This document shows, one piece after another, positions 34,867 to 59,918 of a stretch of DNA of 64,000 bases (its first letter is position 1; each line of letters opens with the position of its first letter). The stretch comes from Ruminococcus flavefaciens. Its GTDB lineage: Bacteria > Bacteroidota > Bacteroidia > Bacteroidales > P3. Location: contig JAMPAI010000008.1 in the NCBI GenBank assembly GCA_023667315.1, positions 1 through 64,000 of the forward strand, written 5' to 3'. The position numbers and the translations under genes are program-made. The notes under the pieces were generated by a model. The model was not told where the DNA came from and ran no database searches. It saw only the letters and a list, made by a program, of their open reading frames with translations.

Positions 34867-36318
34867 ATGAATCGATTGTGTTTTTGGAGAAATGTTACGC
34901 CGATAACATTCCTTACCTACCTTTATATCGCTTTGCCGATATTTATCTTTCTTGTCGGTTGGACAAGAACGGTTTGGGCGGTGCCTTTCGGCATAGTTAC
35001 GGGCCTTTCTTTCGTGCTGTGCCTTCGCCATGCGGAGCCATATCGCCTGCCTTTCGACAGAAAGAAACTTTTTCTGTTGTTTATTCTCATTGCCGTTATC
35101 GTTGTTCTCTGCGGTATAGGGGGCTATATCTGGCAGCATGGCGACCATTATTTCCGCAATGCGATCTTTAAGGCTTTGGTCGAAAACAAATGGCCGGTTG
35201 TAAAGCCTGTGGAGACGGAACTTGGGCTTCGGTTCCGTATCTTGGATTATTATCTCGGATTTTGGTTGCCGGCCGCCGTTTTCGGAAAGGTGTTCGGCCT
35301 TGAGGCGGGTTTCTTCTTTCAGTTTTTGTGGGCATCGCTGGGCCTTTTTCTCATTTGGTACCATTTGTGCCGCTTCATAGGGAAATACAGCCTGTGGATT
35401 CTGGTCGCCTTTGTATTTTTCGGCGGCCTGGACCTGCTGGGTTATTTTATTTTGGATTGCGGACGTTACCGTCTGTTTTTCGAAATGGACTTGGAAGTGT
35501 GGTCCTTTTCCAGAGGCGAGTGGTTGGCATACGTTTCTTTTTTCAACCATATGCGGGGAGCCTTCAACCAGATTTTTTACGCGGCGCCCATCTTTTTGGT
35601 GCTGTTGCAGGAAAAAACAAACAGGAACCTTGTCTTTTTATGGGGGTGCGCCCTGCTTTGCTGCACGATTCCGTTCGTCGGCATGATACCGTTTCTGATT
35701 TACCGGATCTGGCGTAACGGAAAGAGGTATGGCGATTTGATTTCCTTTCAGAATGTAGCGGGCGGTGCGGTGGTAGGACTGGTTTCGTTTAGCTACATCA
35801 TAGGAAATCCGAGTGGCGGCGCATTGGGTTGGTTTCACTTCGGTTTCCTGCAAAGTGTACTTATTTTTCTGCTTTTTGTCTTGCTGGAGGCCGGGGTTTT
35901 CCTGGCTTTGGTTTATCGGCGGAACAAGGGCGTCTTGTTTTGGATTACCGCGGCCGTATTGGTTTTATTGCCTTTTACCGCCATGAACAACGGGCAGATG
36001 CCCGATTTCTGCATGCGGGCTTCCATTCCTGCCTTTCTTGTATTGTTCGCCATGTATGTAAAGGCTTGGGTCGGCGCCAAAGAGCAAAGAAGAAAAGGGG
36101 AGTTATGGATTTTGTCTGTGGTTTTCGTCTTGTCAACGGCTGCTCCCGCCTGCAATCTTTATCAGATAATGCAGGGAACCTGTAAAAAGCATGGATGTGA
36201 GCGCAGGATAGCGCAGGAAGAAGAGATAATGAGACATGGTAATTTCTCGGGCTGGACTGACGAATGTCCTTTCTACCGTCTTTTCGCCAAAAAACAAGAA
36301 GTGCAGCCGGAGATATGA
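34867..36318 (+). CDS. Multipass membrane protein, unknown; possible GT-C-like enzyme
   Basis: A 483-residue protein with about 11 or 12 hydrophobic helices and two polar stretches facing outward (IWQHGDHYFRNAIFKALVENKWPVV and MNNGQMPDFCMRASIPAF). The layout, with an Asp-rich first loop, resembles GT-C-type glycosyltransferases or polymerases, but I recognise no family motif. The C-terminal tail is soluble, with several Cys (GTCKKHGCER, DECPF). The gene is clearly AT-richer than dnaE and trxA on either side, so it looks like an insertion into a conserved housekeeping block. It may serve the polysaccharide genes before dnaE. Function is not assigned. Confidence 0.6.
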   Translation: MNRLCFWRNVTPITFLTYLYIALPIFIFLVGWTRTVWAVPFGIVTGLSFVLCLRHAEPYRLPFDRKKLFLLFILIAVIVVLCGIGGYIWQHGDHYFRNAIFKALVENKWPVVKPVETELGLRFRILDYYLGFWLPAAVFGKVFGLEAGFFFQFLWASLGLFLIWYHLCRFIGKYSLWILVAFVFFGGLDLLGYFILDCGRYRLFFEMDLEVWSFSRGEWLAYVSFFNHMRGAFNQIFYAAPIFLVLLQEKTNRNLVFLWGCALLCCTIPFVGMIPFLIYRIWRNGKRYGDLISFQNVAGGAVVGLVSFSYIIGNPSGGALGWFHFGFLQSVLIFLLFVLLEAGVFLALVYRRNKGVLFWITAAVLVLLPFTAMNNGQMPDFCMRASIPAFLVLFAMYVKAWVGAKEQRRKGELWILSVVFVLSTAAPACNLYQIMQGTCKKHGCERRIAQEEEIMRHGNFSGWTDECPFYRLFAKKQEVQPEI

Positions 36319-38184: not shown

Positions 38185-39627
38185 ATGCCAAAAACAAAAA
38201 CCATGAAAACGAAGAAATATAGCGGCATTATCCTGCTGGTTTCATGTGTGTTGTTTGCGATAGGGACTGCTTGGAGCCAGAAGAGGGAATTAATCGAAAG
38301 AAGAAAAAAACCATTGGATAAATCAGTAGGTGAAGTACGTTGTCGGCTTTATAGTCCCAAGTTGCGTCTATACGGAGACACACTCTATGTACCGACCACA
38401 ACGGGTCTGTACCGGAAGTGCCTGAGTGACACGAACAGCGTGATGTCTCGGGTGGGGTTCGAAGGGCTTTCGGTGGTGGATATCGTCAAGCAGGGAGAAT
38501 GCATTATGGCGCTGCTGTATGGCAATCCGCAGGCCGGCGCCCGCTGTCTTTTTTTGTCGGAAGACGGCGGCCGTACCTGTCGGGACATCACCTACCCGTT
38601 ACAGGAGACAATCCGCAGGGCAGAGATAGAGTTTGGTCTGCCTACTGAAAACACCTTTCGCCTGTTGGTGAATCCTCTAAATGCGAATACTATATGGCTT
38701 ATATTTTCTGACCTTTATCCAGCATTTTATCGAACGTACGACTTCGGGCGGACATGGAATTTTGTTTGGCCGGAGATAAAGGGCTATCATCCAGTGTTAG
38801 CCTATCATCCGTTGGATACGACTATGGTTTTTACGGCAGGAAGCCAGCCATCTGTTTGTGTTTATGCATCGATGGTGAATTATCTGATAGGAACGGATGA
38901 AAATTGGCATAGCTCTTATCGCGGTAGTGGGTCATATGGAATATACGATCTGGCTTTTCATCCAGAGAATCCCGATATAATGATGCTTTCGGATGTGACG
39001 CATGGGCTGTTTAAATCGGCAGACCAGGGGCAAACGTGGATACAGATAAAGGGAACCGAGGAATACGGCATCACCAAAATTGTATTCGACGAAAGGAATC
39101 CCGAGATGATATACGGGCTGAGCCAGGTGTTGTGGTATTGGGATTTGGGTCCGGAGTATGTGGTGACGATGTACCGATCCGACAACGGGGGAGAGACCTG
39201 GAATGAAATTTATCGTTGGATTATGGATATAGACGAAATGGGACCGGTAATCGATGTGGTGCAATATAAGGGCAATCTGATCTTTTATTCGCTGTGGGGA
39301 GAGGTGTCGTCCTTTAACCTGGAGAAACTGGCGTTTGATTGGATGATACCGATAGAATGGGGTCCGTTGACCACGCCCGTGGAACGAAGCGCGGAGGCGT
39401 TCAACCTGACGCTCTACCCGAACCCGGTGCGGGATGTATTGCATTTTAAAACGGAAGAAAAATTGATCTGGGTGGTGATAACGGATATGTCGGGCCGTGT
39501 GGTGAAGACCAAGGCGTTGTCGGGTAACGAGCGGGAAATCTCGGTGTCAGACCTGCGGGCAGGAATGTACGTGGTATGTTTCTACACAAACAACGGCAGC
39601 GTGCGGAAAAAGGTCTGTGTTTTATAA
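38185..39627 (+). CDS. Asp-box (BNR) beta-propeller protein with T9SS sorting domain
   Basis: A 480-residue exported protein. The signal peptide is near residues 8-31 (GIILLVSCVLFAIGTAWSQ); ATG 38203 is an equally good start, giving 474 residues. Four Asp-box-like motifs are seen: SEDGGRTC, TYDFGRTW, SADQGQTW and SDNGGETW, pointing to a sialidase/sortilin-type propeller, but no sialidase catalytic triad is recognised. A T9SS type A sorting domain ends the protein (about 405-480: LTLYPNPVRDVLHF, ITDMSGRVVKTKAL, LRAGMYVVCF). It is a likely surface protein exported by type IX secretion. The AT-richer composition matches the small gene upstream. Confidence 0.85.
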   Translation: MPKTKTMKTKKYSGIILLVSCVLFAIGTAWSQKRELIERRKKPLDKSVGEVRCRLYSPKLRLYGDTLYVPTTTGLYRKCLSDTNSVMSRVGFEGLSVVDIVKQGECIMALLYGNPQAGARCLFLSEDGGRTCRDITYPLQETIRRAEIEFGLPTENTFRLLVNPLNANTIWLIFSDLYPAFYRTYDFGRTWNFVWPEIKGYHPVLAYHPLDTTMVFTAGSQPSVCVYASMVNYLIGTDENWHSSYRGSGSYGIYDLAFHPENPDIMMLSDVTHGLFKSADQGQTWIQIKGTEEYGITKIVFDERNPEMIYGLSQVLWYWDLGPEYVVTMYRSDNGGETWNEIYRWIMDIDEMGPVIDVVQYKGNLIFYSLWGEVSSFNLEKLAFDWMIPIEWGPLTTPVERSAEAFNLTLYPNPVRDVLHFKTEEKLIWVVITDMSGRVVKTKALSGNEREISVSDLRAGMYVVCFYTNNGSVRKKVCVL

Positions 39628-49399: not shown

Positions 49400-49424
49400 C
49401 GCAAAATCCCGTTATGATTATTTG

Positions 49425-53822: not shown

Positions 53823-55352
53823 ATGCAAGAAAGCATCCTCATTCTGGATTTCGGCTCGCAATACACGCAGCTGATTGCGCGAAAAGTGCGCGAGAACAAC
53901 ATCTATTGCGAGATTCATCCCTACAACCACATTCCGCAACTGTCCGAAAACATCAAGGGGGTCATCCTTTCGGGAAGCCCGTATTCGGTAAACGACCCCG
54001 ACGCGCCCAAGCCCGATTTGAGCCAGATCCGCGGCAAGTTCCCGCTTCTGGCGGTATGTTACGGGGCGCAGCTGCTGGTTAATCTGGAAGGCGGAAAGGT
54101 GGCCTCGGCCAACAGCCGCGAATACGGACGCGCCAACCTCTCGTATATCGACACGGAATGCCCGTTGTTCAAGGACGTTCCGCTCAACAGCCAGGTATGG
54201 ATGTCGCACGGCGACACGATCCTGGAATATCCCGCCAGGTTCCGCATCACCTGCAGCACGCCCGATGTAAAGGCCTGCGGCTACAGCATCGAGGGCGAGA
54301 ACACCTACGCCCTGCAGTTCCATCCCGAAGTGTACCACTCCACCGACGGCTTCACCATCCTGCACAATTTCCTTACCGGTATCTGCGGCTGCCGAGCCGA
54401 CTGGACGCCCGACAATTTCGTGAAGTCGTGCGTGGAAGACCTGCGCAAGGCCGTGGGCAACGAAGAAGTGATCCTGGGGCTTTCGGGCGGCGTGGACTCG
54501 AGCGTGGCGGCGGTGTTGCTGCACAAGGCCATCGGCAAGCAGCTGCACTGCATATTCGTGGACAACGGCCTGTTGCGCAAGGGCGAATTCGACGACGTGC
54601 TGGATTCGTTCAAGGGCATGGACATCGAGGTTACGGGCGTGGATGCCTCCCAACTTTTCTACGATGCCCTCAAGGGCGTTACCGAACCCGAGGCCAAACG
54701 CAAGGCCATCGGCAAGACCTTTATCGATGTGTTCGAGGCCGAGGCCCGCAAGTTCAGGAGCGCGCGTTTCCTGGCGCAGGGCACGATTTATCCCGACGTC
54801 ATCGAGTCGGCGCCCGTAAAGGGACCCTCGCAAACGATAAAGTCGCACCACAACGTGGGCGGCCTGCCCGAAAAGATGAACCTGAAGGTGGTGGAGCCCC
54901 TGCGCGCCCTTTTTAAGGACGAAGTGCGGCGGGTGGGGAAGAGCGTGGGCCTGCCCGACCATCTGCTCAACCGCCATCCCTTTCCCGGGCCCGGCCTGGG
55001 CATCCGCATTTTGGGCGAGGTCAATGCGCAGAAAGTGTCTATATTGCAGGAAGTGGACGCCATCTACATCAACGCCCTGCGACAGGAAAACCTCTACGAC
55101 AAGGTTTGGCAGGCGGGCGCCGTGCTGCTGCCCATCTATTCGGTGGGCGTGATGGGCGATGAGCGCACCTACGAGCAGGTGGTGGCCTTGCGCGCGGTAA
55201 ATTCCACCGACGGCATGACCGCCGACTGGAGCCGCCTTCCGTTCGACTTCCTGGGCAGGGTGAGCAACGAGATCATCAACAAGGTGCGCGGCGTGAACCG
55301 TGTGGTGTATGACATCAGTTCCAAGCCGCCCTCCACAATCGAGTGGGAGTAG
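53823..55352 (+). CDS. guaA: GMP synthase (glutamine-hydrolysing)
   Basis: A 509-residue bifunctional enzyme that turns XMP into GMP. The N-terminal class I glutamine amidotransferase has [18 protein letters not shown] and [15 protein letters not shown] with the catalytic Cys (canonical CYGMQ is here CYGAQ), and [12 protein letters not shown] with the His-Glu. The ATP pyrophosphatase has [21 protein letters not shown]. The C-terminal dimerisation domain ends with KPPSTIEWE, the conserved terminus. It is followed directly by the EcoRI-type genes with a 37-base gap and no evident terminator. Confidence 0.96.
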
Positions 55353-55389
55353 GTTAAAAATAGAGGAAACTTCTTATATGTGTTGACCG

Positions 55390-56259
55390 ATGGCAAAAAA
55401 AAATCAATCGAATAGACTGACCAAACAACAAAAAAGTTCGAAAGGCGTTGTCGGTATATTTGGAGAAGAAGCCAAATTGCATGACTTAACAGTAAGTCAA
55501 CTTTCGCAATTGGTTATATCCAATCTTGAAACCAAATACCCCTGTCTGGAGTTTCGGCACAGAGACCGTATCCGAAAGGAAGAAATAAATCGTGCGTTAC
55601 AAAAAATCGATCCTGAACTTGGGCAAACTTTATTTGTTGCAGATTCAAGCATTATACCTGACGGCGGTATAATAGAAGTGAAAGATGACAATGGAAATTG
55701 GCGTATCGTTTTGGTATCCGAAGCCAAACATCAAGGCAAGGATATTGAGAATATACGCAGAGGAAAACTTGTAGGAAAGAATAACGATCAAGATTTAATG
55801 GCAGCAGGTAATGCTATTGAACGTTCCCATAAAAACATTTCTGAAATCGCTAATCTGATGTTGGGAGAATCCCATTTCCCATATGTTCTTTTTCTAGAGG
55901 GTTCAAATTTTCTCACTGAAACTCTTACAATAAAACGTCCAGACGGAAGATCCGTCATCTTGGAATATAACTCAGGAATGTTAAATAGGTTAGATCGTCT
56001 TACCTCTGCCAATTATGGAATGCCCATCAACACGAATCTATGCAGAAACAGATTTGTTCAGCATCATGATAAAACCATTATGCTGCAAGCAGCCTCCATT
56101 TTTACTCAGGGGGATGGCTCTCGATGGCAACGGAAAAAGATGATTGAAATCATGATGGATATCGCAAATACATCACTCCGGATTTTAGGCAGTGAGTTAT
56201 TTAAACAATTATCTAACCTAACGGCTTCAACTAATTCCGATGGCACGAAAGGCAAATAA
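55390..56259 (+). CDS. EcoRI-type type II restriction endonuclease
   Basis: A 289-residue protein that I recognise as close to EcoRI over its length (NQSNRLTKQQKSSKGVVGIFG, NAIERSHKNISEIANLM, PYVLFLEGSNFLTE). The PD-(D/E)xK residues fall at the same numbers as in EcoRI: D91 (PDGG), E111 and K113 (EAKHQGKD). The DNA-recognition residues also coincide: M137-A138-A139-G140-N141-A142, E144, R145, R200 and R203. It is therefore predicted to cut G^AATTC. EcoRI is 277 residues; the extra C-terminal tail (NLTASTNSDGTKGK) overlaps the methylase gene by 20 bases. The gene is AT-rich compared with guaA, a sign of transfer. Confidence 0.93.
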   Translation: MAKKNQSNRLTKQQKSSKGVVGIFGEEAKLHDLTVSQLSQLVISNLETKYPCLEFRHRDRIRKEEINRALQKIDPELGQTLFVADSSIIPDGGIIEVKDDNGNWRIVLVSEAKHQGKDIENIRRGKLVGKNNDQDLMAAGNAIERSHKNISEIANLMLGESHFPYVLFLEGSNFLTETLTIKRPDGRSVILEYNSGMLNRLDRLTSANYGMPINTNLCRNRFVQHHDKTIMLQAASIFTQGDGSRWQRKKMIEIMMDIANTSLRILGSELFKQLSNLTASTNSDGTKGK

Positions 56260-57343
56260 TTCTCTTTTGCATAAAGCTAAAGGGTTAAAAAGCGATGAGT
56301 TTTATACTCAGTATTGTGATATTGAGCGGGAATTGCAATATTACGAATCACAGTTCTATGGAAAAACAGTATATTGTAACTGTGACGAACCAAGTAAAAG
56401 CAATTTTTTTAAATACTTTATTGATAATTTCTATAAACTCAGGCTCAAAAAGGTCATTGCTTCTTGTTATGTGAAGACAAACGATGATTTGTTTTCAACG
56501 CAACACGAGCATGGAATGTATTCAGTATACACAGGAGAACCTTACATCAATGACCTTTCTAACTTTCCAATAAGATATTTTGACGGCAATGGAGATTTTC
56601 GAAGTAGAGAAAGCATACGACTTCTTTCAGAAGCGGATATAGTCGTAACCAATCCTCCTTTTTCCTTATTCAGGGAATTTGTGTCTCAATTAATCAAGTT
56701 CAACAAGAAATTTTTAGTTATTGGAAACATAAACGCCATTACGTATAGCGAAATTTTCAAACTGATACAAGAGAACCGTATTTGGCTCGGACAGAATTTG
56801 GGACGAGGCATTTCAGGTTTTATCGTCCCCGATAACTACCCTCTTTATGGTACTGAAAATCATATAGATGAAGATGGGAAAAGAATCATCGCATCCAATA
56901 ATTGCCTATGGCTCACCAATTTAGAAACTCCGTTACGTGAAGAAGAAATAAAACTGACAAAAAAATATTACGAACACGAAGACTTGTATCCCTCGTTTGA
57001 TAATTATCCTGGGATAAATGTCAACAAGACACAAGATATTCCAATGGATTATTATGGAGTAATGGGCGTTCCTATTACCTTTCTCCACAAATACAACCCA
57101 CATCAATTTGAAATTGTTAGATTTAGGAAGGGAATAGACGGGAAAGACCTATCGGTTAACGGAAAATGTCCATACTTTCGTATCCTAATCCGGAATATCA
57201 GTTTATCAAAAAATGAACTCGGTTCAAGTTCTACTATTATGGATATAAGTTCTATGTCAAGGGATTTGAATCAGGAAGCCTCACATAATAAGAATAATCC
57301 TTCGTTTATTAACGAGAATTCACAATTCTCGTTATTCGAATAA
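56240..57343 (+). CDS. EcoRI-type adenine DNA methyltransferase
   Basis: A 367-residue N6-adenine methyltransferase that I recognise as close to M.EcoRI (NSLLHKAKGLKSDEFYTQYC, IASCYVKT, DIVVTNPPFSLFREF, LGQNLGRGISGFIVPDNY, INVNKTQDIPMDYYGVMGVP). The catalytic NPPF lies at about 138-141. It is predicted to methylate GAATTC and protect the host from the preceding nuclease. M.EcoRI is about 326 residues; here about 40 extra residues rich in Ser, Asn and Asp end in NENSQFSLFE. Its start lies inside the nuclease gene, unlike the plasmid EcoRI genes, which are separated by a short gap. AT-rich. Confidence 0.93.
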   Translation: MARKANNSLLHKAKGLKSDEFYTQYCDIERELQYYESQFYGKTVYCNCDEPSKSNFFKYFIDNFYKLRLKKVIASCYVKTNDDLFSTQHEHGMYSVYTGEPYINDLSNFPIRYFDGNGDFRSRESIRLLSEADIVVTNPPFSLFREFVSQLIKFNKKFLVIGNINAITYSEIFKLIQENRIWLGQNLGRGISGFIVPDNYPLYGTENHIDEDGKRIIASNNCLWLTNLETPLREEEIKLTKKYYEHEDLYPSFDNYPGINVNKTQDIPMDYYGVMGVPITFLHKYNPHQFEIVRFRKGIDGKDLSVNGKCPYFRILIRNISLSKNELGSSSTIMDISSMSRDLNQEASHNKNNPSFINENSQFSLFE

Positions 57344-57386
57344 AATTTTGTAACTTGGCCTAGTGGCCGTTTTAAGTCCCAAGAAT

Positions 57387-59174
57387 ATGAAGATTAAAAG
57401 TTTCCTTTTCAGAATATGCTTTTTTGCACTCCTGCTGTGTATCGGCGCGAAGCTTGGCGCGCAGGAGTCCGCGACCCCGTTCCAGGCTTCGCCCGTGGTT
57501 CCCGCCAAGGTGTCCGACACCATTCTGGGCAAGGCATATCGGGTGCACACCGTGCAGAAAGGCCACACGCTGTATTCCATCTGCAGGGCCTATCAGGTCC
57601 CGGCCGATTCCATACTGAAGGACTCTCCGGCCAATCAGGTGGATATCGACGAGTTCATCTACATTCCGCTCCGCCTGCTGCCGGGCGAGAGGGCACAGGA
57701 GTTCAGCCGTTTTTCGGGCAAACGTCCGTGGGCGGTGGTGTTCCTGCAGAAAGACGAGGTGGCGCAGACGGTAACGTCCGACAGACAGGAGACGGCCCCT
57801 GTGGAAACGGGCAGCGAAGTGTCTGAAAGCGCCGAACCCGAAAACCTCAGGCCGGGCGGGGCCGTTCAGGAAAGGACGGAATTGGAGGAAGATTCCGTGG
57901 AAGTGGAAAAGGGAAGGGGCAAGAAACGCCGTGAGCGCAGGGAAGAACGCATGGCCGAGGCTGATACCGCCGTGGTGACCGACAGCCTGGATGTCTTTCT
58001 TTCCGACAGCGTTTTCGTGACCCCGCACCCGCAGGCCAAGGAATACAAGGATTCCTTGCGCGTTTCCCTGCTGTTGCCCCTTTACAGCAACACGCCCCAA
58101 GACAAGAAGGCCTATATTTACCTGCCGTTTTTCGAAGGCGCCACGGTGGCCTGGCAGGAACACCTCGACCCCGCCTTCTTCAATCCTCCCGTATCCGACA
58201 CCGTAGGCGCAGACTCGTTGGCCATGGCCGTGCCGGAGATTCCTGCCGACACCACGCCCAAGCCCCATATTAGCCTGCGGGTCTATGACCTTACCCAGTC
58301 GGCCGACGCGCTCGACTCAATCGTAAACGACGCCTATTTCCAGGCCTCCGACGCGGTGGTGGCCACGGCCTTCGTGGACCAGTTCGTGCGGCTCGACAGC
58401 CTTTCCAAGGCATGGCAGATGCCTGTGATCCATCCCATTTCCGAACGCGACTCGATGGGTTTCGCCAATTCTTATTTCGTGCAATTGGCGGCCAGCTACG
58501 GCACGCAAATCCGGCATATCGCCGGGTTCATCAAGGAACACCACGCCAAATCGAGGGTGCTGGTGATCACCGACTCGGCCGAGTCGGAGGTACGCAAGGC
58601 CGGACAGTTGCAGGCACTGCTGCCCGAATGCGAGCATCTTTACTTCAACGCGGCCACGGTCGAACGGCTGGAAAGCTTCAGCGAAGACAACACGAAAGTG
58701 GTTATCGTGCCGTTCTACCGCAAGGAGATAACGGCGGTAAAGACGGTGCTTCCCTTGCGTCAGGCCAAGGGCAACATCACCATTATCGCGCCCAACGTGT
58801 GGCTGGACTACGCCTCGGTGGACCTGGACTACTACATACAGAACAACCTTACCGTCTATCACACCTTCTGCAGCACCGTGCAGAACACCGATCTGCTGGA
58901 GTTCTCGCGCAAATACTACTTCCTGTACCGCGCCCTGCCCAATCCCCTGGCCTATCAGGGCTATAAGACCCTGCTCTGGCTGCTGGACAACCTGAATGCC
59001 CGCAACGCGGACTTCATGCGCTATTTAGATGCCGGAAACGAAGACGAAGAAACGCATCGGGAAGGAGAAGACGAGGAAATCTACATCCTGAAGGAACGCG
59101 AAATGGGCGGTTTCGAAAACCGGGATGTGCATTTCGTAAAGATTTCCGACAACAAGCTGGAACATTTCAAGTAA
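57387..59174 (+). CDS. LysM-domain protein with substrate-binding-like region
   Basis: A 595-residue exported protein. ATG 57387 gives a signal peptide (IKSFLFRICFFALLLCIGAKLGAQ); a GTG 8 codons upstream is in frame but less likely. A LysM domain at about 51-94 (RVHTVQKGHTLYSICRAYQ) would bind peptidoglycan. A charged linker (about 120-215) follows. The rest (about 220-560) resembles type I periplasmic-binding or receptor-ligand folds (LRVSLLLPLYSNTP, HAKSRVLVITDSAESEVRKAGQL, GNITIIAPNVWLDY). Such proteins are common in Bacteroidota with unknown ligand. It lies directly after the restriction-modification genes and probably once followed guaA. Confidence 0.83.
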   Translation: MKIKSFLFRICFFALLLCIGAKLGAQESATPFQASPVVPAKVSDTILGKAYRVHTVQKGHTLYSICRAYQVPADSILKDSPANQVDIDEFIYIPLRLLPGERAQEFSRFSGKRPWAVVFLQKDEVAQTVTSDRQETAPVETGSEVSESAEPENLRPGGAVQERTELEEDSVEVEKGRGKKRRERREERMAEADTAVVTDSLDVFLSDSVFVTPHPQAKEYKDSLRVSLLLPLYSNTPQDKKAYIYLPFFEGATVAWQEHLDPAFFNPPVSDTVGADSLAMAVPEIPADTTPKPHISLRVYDLTQSADALDSIVNDAYFQASDAVVATAFVDQFVRLDSLSKAWQMPVIHPISERDSMGFANSYFVQLAASYGTQIRHIAGFIKEHHAKSRVLVITDSAESEVRKAGQLQALLPECEHLYFNAATVERLESFSEDNTKVVIVPFYRKEITAVKTVLPLRQAKGNITIIAPNVWLDYASVDLDYYIQNNLTVYHTFCSTVQNTDLLEFSRKYYFLYRALPNPLAYQGYKTLLWLLDNLNARNADFMRYLDAGNEDEETHREGEDEEIYILKEREMGGFENRDVHFVKISDNKLEHFK

Positions 59175-59198: not shown

Positions 59199-59918
59199 AT
59201 GAAAACACTCAGAATCCTCGCACTTGCCGTCTTGACGGCGGTATTCTCGACGGGCTTGCGCGCCCAACAGGCCGTGTTGCCCTTTACGGGAACCGTGCAG
59301 TACAGCATCGCGTACGAAAGCCCGATCATTCCTCAGGAACAACTGGCGCAGCAGCCGCAGATCGCCTCGCTCCGCATGGCCACCGACAAGGCCGTTTTCT
59401 CGATGGCCGAACAGAAGGCCCTGGCCGATGCGACCACAAAAGAGGTTCATTCGCTGATAAACCTTTCGTCCATGGGTCTGGGCAAATACCATATGGTGGA
59501 AACCGAAGCCGAACTGCAGCAGCAGATGCAGGAAATGCAGAACGTAAAGGTGGAGGAAACCGAAGAAACCAAAACCATTTTCGGCTATACCGCAAAACTC
59601 ACCAAAGCTGCCTATAAAGAAGGCAACACCTCGGTGGAAATGGAAATCTGGACGGTGGAAAATTTCTGTGACCCCTTCCTTTCGAGAGCCACGCAGGGAG
59701 AGGTGCCCGGTTTAAAGGGATTCCCCTTGGAATACAAGGTAAAGACGCCAGATATGACGGTAAACTTTACCGTCCGCAAGCTCACGAACGAGGAAGTGAA
59801 CCCGAAATACTTCAGCATACCGTCTTCCTACAAGGTCTCCACCAAGGAACAGATGCAGAAAGACATCCAGGAATTCATGCAGAGCATGCAGAACATGCAG
59901 GGCGGCATGGGGATGTAG
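59199..59918 (+). CDS. Small secreted protein, DUF4412-like
   Basis: A 239-residue exported protein with signal peptide (LALAVLTAVFSTGLRAQ). The core is beta-rich and resembles DUF4412/GLPGLI-type periplasmic proteins (FTGTVQYSIAYESP; TIFGYTAKLTKAAYKEG; EIWTVENFCDPF; PGLKGFPLEYKV). It ends in a Met/Gln-rich tail (QMQKDIQEFMQSMQNMQGGMGM), which may be flexible or bind metal. It starts 24 bases after the LysM gene and ends at a strong terminator. The function is unknown. Confidence 0.65.
   Translation: MKTLRILALAVLTAVFSTGLRAQQAVLPFTGTVQYSIAYESPIIPQEQLAQQPQIASLRMATDKAVFSMAEQKALADATTKEVHSLINLSSMGLGKYHMVETEAELQQQMQEMQNVKVEETEETKTIFGYTAKLTKAAYKEGNTSVEMEIWTVENFCDPFLSRATQGEVPGLKGFPLEYKVKTPDMTVNFTVRKLTNEEVNPKYFSIPSSYKVSTKEQMQKDIQEFMQSMQNMQGGMGM

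Follow-up and report, generated by a model that had tools for sequence, protein, structure and literature searches.

The textbook EcoRI restriction-modification system, that of E. coli plasmids, consists of an endonuclease gene (R) followed in tandem, on the same strand, by a methylase gene (M); PMC3874152 describes one promoter for a bicistronic message, together with further M promoters that lie inside R and face reverse promoters. LraI of Lactococcus raffinolactis and RsrI are characterised isoschizomers of the same family that recognise G/AATTC (PMC5896346), and the same 2018 publication counts 526 putative EcoRI-like proteins in REBASE, spread among phyla. The locus described here lies in a window, by which we mean the whole 64,000-nucleotide stretch of Bacteroidota DNA that was analysed. 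Its nuclease, likened to LraI and RsrI by description, is found in a host of a phylum other than theirs. It is 72% identical to EcoRI of E. coli plasmids, and R and M adjoin in the same order on one strand, but the pair is chromosomal and is not accompanied by plasmid mobilisation genes. The E. coli plasmid pCol-4 differs further in having a 29-bp gap between R and M, whereas the two genes overlap by 20 bp in the window, and in a methylase that extends 6 residues past its YFRILIR core, compared with 49 in the window. We conclude with considerable confidence that the locus is an intact, canonical type II restriction-modification system of the EcoRI type, one that arrived recently and whose donor was most likely another Bacteroidota genome; the pair is an ordinary additional member of a known, widely spread family. 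The features of the region are as follows.

53823..55352, + strand: guaA, the upstream host neighbour, outside the system (NF000848 equivalog; score 759 bits, cut-off 400)
55356..57386, no strand: inserted segment of 2,031 bp, compared with a 42-bp spacer in the same-genus genome G008; one GAATTC inside, at 57316
55390..56259, + strand: R, EcoRI-family type II restriction endonuclease, 289 aa, a predicted G/AATTC cutter (PF02963, EcoRI alignment, kept residues)
56240..56259, + strand: 20-bp stretch shared by the 3' end of R and the 5' end of M
56240..57343, + strand: M, EcoRI-family adenine DNA methyltransferase, 367 aa (PF13651, NPPF at residues 138-141)
57310..57334, + strand: perfect inverted repeat with 11-bp arms and a 3-bp loop, in the last M codons; a possible hairpin or terminator
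57323..57337, + strand: encodes QFSLF, residues 362-366 of M, a peptide similar to the beta-clamp-binding consensus; overlaps the inverted repeat
57387..59174, + strand: LysM-type gene, the downstream neighbour (PF01476 at 20 bits, just under the cut-off of 20.9)

The original prediction of a complete EcoRI-type pair was borne out: both open reading frames are intact and in tandem at the positions listed, and both family matches are far above their cut-offs and far beyond chance. In profile searches, R scored 474.1 bits against PF02963 (EcoRI; cut-off, 22) and covered positions 1-257 of the 257 in the profile, while M scored 400.1 bits against PF13651 (EcoRI_methylase; cut-off, 26.4) over positions 2-304 of 345; the PADLOC models for type II REases and type II MTases were matched by R and M, respectively, and NCBIfam searches gave no matches for either protein. 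Against three relatives, R and M differ approximately 2 to 6 times more often at codon position 3 than at positions 1 and 2, a purifying pattern which argues that both proteins have been under selection. In a set of 85 tandem pairs, which includes two pairs of rows with identical proteins (L128 = L016 and L129 = L032), no overlap other than this 20-bp one exceeds 1 bp; the next value is -1 and the others are at least 2. The gap is -1 to 43 bp in 79 of the 85 and at least 179 bp in 5, for which the paired copies may be mis-assigned. A forward-strand pattern scan for Bacteroidota-type promoter boxes placed -7-like boxes at 55455, 57173 and 57351 and returned no full -33/-7 pairs.

The phmmer alignment of R with the solved EcoRI structure (PDB 2oxv) runs without gaps across residues 1-275, and residue numbering is therefore common to both proteins. 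At this numbering, R is identical to EcoRI at D91, E111 and K113, the catalytic residues, and at M137 to A142, E144, R145, R200 and R203, the residues of recognition, exactly as had been read from the sequence beforehand. Conservation was counted over 90 EcoRI-family rows, with the denominators giving the rows that bear a letter: D91 is retained in 86/86, E111 in 84/85, K113 in 85/85, N141, E144 and R145 in 85/85 each, and R200 and R203 in 84/84 each, whereas A138 is less fixed (79/85). R departs from EcoRI nearby at two positions, with D in place of N85 and I in place of K89, and these substitutions could be taken to mean that specificity has drifted away from GAATTC. Such drift strikes us as highly improbable, for R200, R203 and all residues from 137 to 149 are kept, family members more often have I at position 89 (46 of 86 rows with a letter there), and RsrI still recognises GAATTC at 50% identity (PMC5896346, PMC4081073). 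Recognition of GAATTC by the pair is a sound prediction from its sequence.

The NPPF motif, which the methylase was expected to retain, occupies columns that are invariant across a 32-row alignment. A search of solved structures with M produced no convincing match, the best (E = 0.021) being to a diaminopimelate decarboxylase. The end branch of M in the M tree is long (0.54), and its tail falls outside the PF13651 profile; given these two properties, M activity may be weakened. From what is known of the family, we would expect R to cut unmethylated G/AATTC and M to place N6-methyladenine on the same GAATTC sites, with incoming phage or plasmid DNA being cut and host DNA spared. As a working prediction, DNA intended for this host should be GAATTC methylated or GAATTC free.

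The alignment with G008 halts at window position 55355 and restarts at 57387; its flanks on either side of the insert are 93-95% identical to the window, with segments over the entire aligned region ranging from 78% to 97%. Comparison with relatives also places the start of the LysM gene at ATG 57387, replacing GTG 57363. This gene was present in 11 of the 12 other same-genus genomes searched, and 7 of the 11 stretches fetched were informative on the insertion site (L086, L087, L088, L090, L093, L094 and L096), with L089, L091 and L092 holding the LysM start alone and L095 holding neither end. The comparison of the guaA-LysM gap that had been proposed as a check came out in favor of insertion: all seven informative genomes (G008 and six more) have an empty site, at which the end of guaA and the start of the LysM gene are approximately 18 to 150 bp apart. 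The empty site in close kin makes the pair a clean example of an EcoRI-type cassette in a Bacteroidota chromosome, one that would have entered recently and displaced the short guaA-LysM spacer.

That the pair is old, was inherited vertically in this lineage and was lost from sister genomes is an explanation to which we give very little credence. A second member of the genus, G010, also bears an EcoRI-type pair, but this is only approximately 75% (R) and 66% (M) identical to that of the window, stands beside it in neither tree and is on a contig other than that carrying the G010 guaA-LysM junction, while G008, the nearest genome in this region, shows an empty site. Given the divergence of the G010 pair and its location on another contig, acquisitions within the genus look independent.

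Entry by way of a transposon or integron was considered and rejected, as the guaA-LysM interval showed no mobility ORF and, R and M apart, its ORFs of at least 60 aa are all short and antisense; nor was a target-site duplication seen. An imperfect inverted pair that spans the insert (55364-55377/57393-57406; 14 nt, 86% complementary) was attributed to chance because its right arm lies in LysM coding sequence and is also present in G008. The system is a bare two-gene cassette. The window and G008 differ elsewhere as well: two window genes lie in stretches that have no equivalent in the G008 DNA retrieved, one (34867-36318) for what by eye is a 483-aa multi-pass membrane protein and the other (38185-39627) for a 480-aa protein that by eye looks secreted and C-terminally sorted, and G008 has extra DNA of approximately 12 kb at window position 49413/49458 and approximately 6 kb at 59917/59934.

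Exact-peptide scanning recovered 164 relatives of R in GTDB species genomes. The best 80 of the 164 are 71-79% identical to it and, by submitters' titles, include many Bacteroidota, with others from Pseudomonadota, Cyanobacteriota, Patescibacteria groups and more; enterobacterial plasmids, at approximately 72%, fall within the same range. The original prediction held for the completeness and recent arrival of the pair, but its suggestion that so close a relative of EcoRI is remarkable when found outside Enterobacteria was not supported. The textbook plasmid EcoRI is better seen as one branch of a family that is spread patchily through Bacteroidota and beyond. With the window's own genome included, PF02963 was matched in 4 of 61 genomes, and in the taxonomic sets the tally was 6 of 190 (family), 8 of 393 (order) and 5 of 395 (class), so that the EcoRI family occurs patchily in Bacteroidota, in about 1-3% of the genomes in the family, order and class sets. 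M-family genes are commoner and were found in 20 of 395 genomes of the phylum. No R match was obtained from 10 of the 13 family genomes bearing M, and EcoRI-family methylases approximately 46-52% identical to M lie in L115-L123 and L125 without an EcoRI-type nuclease match in the same stretch.

The pair is AT rich, as first noted, with a GC content of 0.385 for R and 0.348 for M, compared with 0.56 for the remainder of the window, and its GC3 is 0.34, whereas guaA and the LysM gene reach 0.82 and 0.76, respectively. L003 and L020, the two copies of the family from other hosts whose composition was examined, are also low in GC (0.38 each), and GC alone therefore points to foreignness and gives no date of arrival. 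Avoidance of GAATTC, a sign of age, was absent from both window and genome. Outside the insert, the window contains 16 GAATTC sites against 13.1 expected, and the sequence ranks 54th of 57 palindromes (expectation of >3) ordered from the most avoided; the whole 2.93-Mb genome contains 951, compared with 768 in approximately 2.3 Mb of G008, in which neither R nor M was found, and the two densities are near equal. Rusinov and colleagues (PMC4687349) report that when a system is present and its site is not under-represented, this may point to a recently acquired system. Together with the empty site in close kin, the low GC and the patchy distribution, the lack of avoidance agrees with the recent acquisition proposed at the outset.

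Absence of avoidance fits an inactive nuclease equally, and R might be intact in sequence yet silent or weak in this host, with the pair persisting as a methylation gene or as a decaying selfish element. Relatives lend this idea some substance: M outnumbers R there (14 versus 4 of 61 genomes), and family copies interrupted by stops occur in G103 and G190, among 8 matching order genomes, and in G771 and G536, among 5 matching class genomes, assembly error being possible in each. We nevertheless think it unlikely, since R is full length with its active-site residues in place and its codon pattern indicates selection. An intact system of recent arrival is the reading that we retain. Among other members of the genus, G003, in which no EcoRI-type R or M was found, has 224 GAATTC sites in approximately 2.0 Mb, compared with 429 for the reversed control, unlike the 12 other genus genomes, in which GAATTC exceeds that control; the scarcity in G003 may be the trace of a lost GAATTC system.

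In both the R and the M trees, the window pair adjoins that of L003 (SH-aLRT support of 85 and 94, respectively), apart from the enterobacterial plasmid copies. Each tree held 83 rows and was built by a quick method with SH-aLRT support and no bootstrap; 7 of 90 rows were dropped from the R tree (<230 aa) and 13 of 96 from the M tree (shorter than 260 aa or lacking a usable R row), and the window and L003 rows were flagged as long in the latter, so that their pairing may be overstated. The L003 pair shares 77% (R) and 67% (M) identity with ours but has other neighbor genes and a 2-bp gap between R and M. Two of the metagenome-assembled genomes, L003 (titled Pseudoflavonifractor) and L065 (titled Lachnoclostridium), look like mislabelled Bacteroidota: SusD_RagB was matched 8 times in the former and 6 times in the latter, and among 14 control genomes only a Bacteroides has any. 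Transfer from Bacillota, an idea raised by the title of L003, was dropped in view of this richness in SusD_RagB, and the Bacteroidota-like character of the tree neighbor places the donor most likely within Bacteroidota. Among 72,556 plasmid records, 19 matched R, the best at 72.4%, which is no closer than the best chromosomal relatives, and Enterobacteria are therefore not the likely donor. Carriage by phages was likewise set aside, as a single phage record among 50,697 matched R, with 54% of the query covered, and R peptides were found in four viral contigs. M-family genes, for their part, are frequent in viral contigs (278 stretches in an alignment query, of which the best 80 were kept).

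The tail of the methylase family is hypervariable: among 91 full-length M ORFs, the conserved core could be placed in 84, and in these the tail runs 2 to 49 residues beyond it. The window M, which ends in ENSQFSLFE, has the longest. In the AlphaFold model, whose mean pLDDT of 68.9 is moderate, residues 327-367 fall below 50. QLSLF is given as the PolC clamp-binding consensus in PMC3919608, and a C-terminal Q[LF]xLF, a motif picked after it had been seen, occurs in mechanically called ORFs in 3 of 191 distinct M-family members (the window, L003 and the viral contig L146 = L188), is lacking in the other 188 and is absent from all 877 non-overlapping ORFs outside the family (at least 150 aa) in the DNA analysed; no run of 2,000 in which tails were shuffled by residue pool gave two or more motifs. 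In the window, the part of the M tail concerned is 57310-57343. The sites in the relatives, of the QFSLF or QLSLF type, are at 7893-7907 in L003, whose M, like ours, has the peptide (Q-L-x-L-F) at its end, and at 4913-4927 in L146.

It is conceivable, but in our judgement doubtful, that this subset of EcoRI-family methylases gained a sliding-clamp-binding peptide on a disordered C-terminal tail and docks on the replisome. A docked methylase would methylate new GAATTC sites before the nuclease arrives, a form of replication-coupled self-protection that, if real, would give a selfish restriction-modification pair a mechanism for keeping the new DNA of its host safe. The window motif may instead be a by-product of stem-loop DNA: its codons overlap the right arm of the 11-bp inverted repeat, and the L003 motif lies inside a long terminator-like hairpin followed by a T run, whereas that of L146 is outside any stem-loop. 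The window and L003 are also adjacent in the tree, and the motif may reflect only two events. A non-exhaustive search of the literature brought up no clamp-like peptide in a type II methylase; the nearest idea encountered is that of PMC7736820, in which a plasmid methylase is tied to DNA polymerase I and the authors mention the sliding clamp when they discuss a possible host intermediary. Elsewhere in the window, a 1172-aa ORF that appears DnaE-like by eye carries QTDLF at 919.
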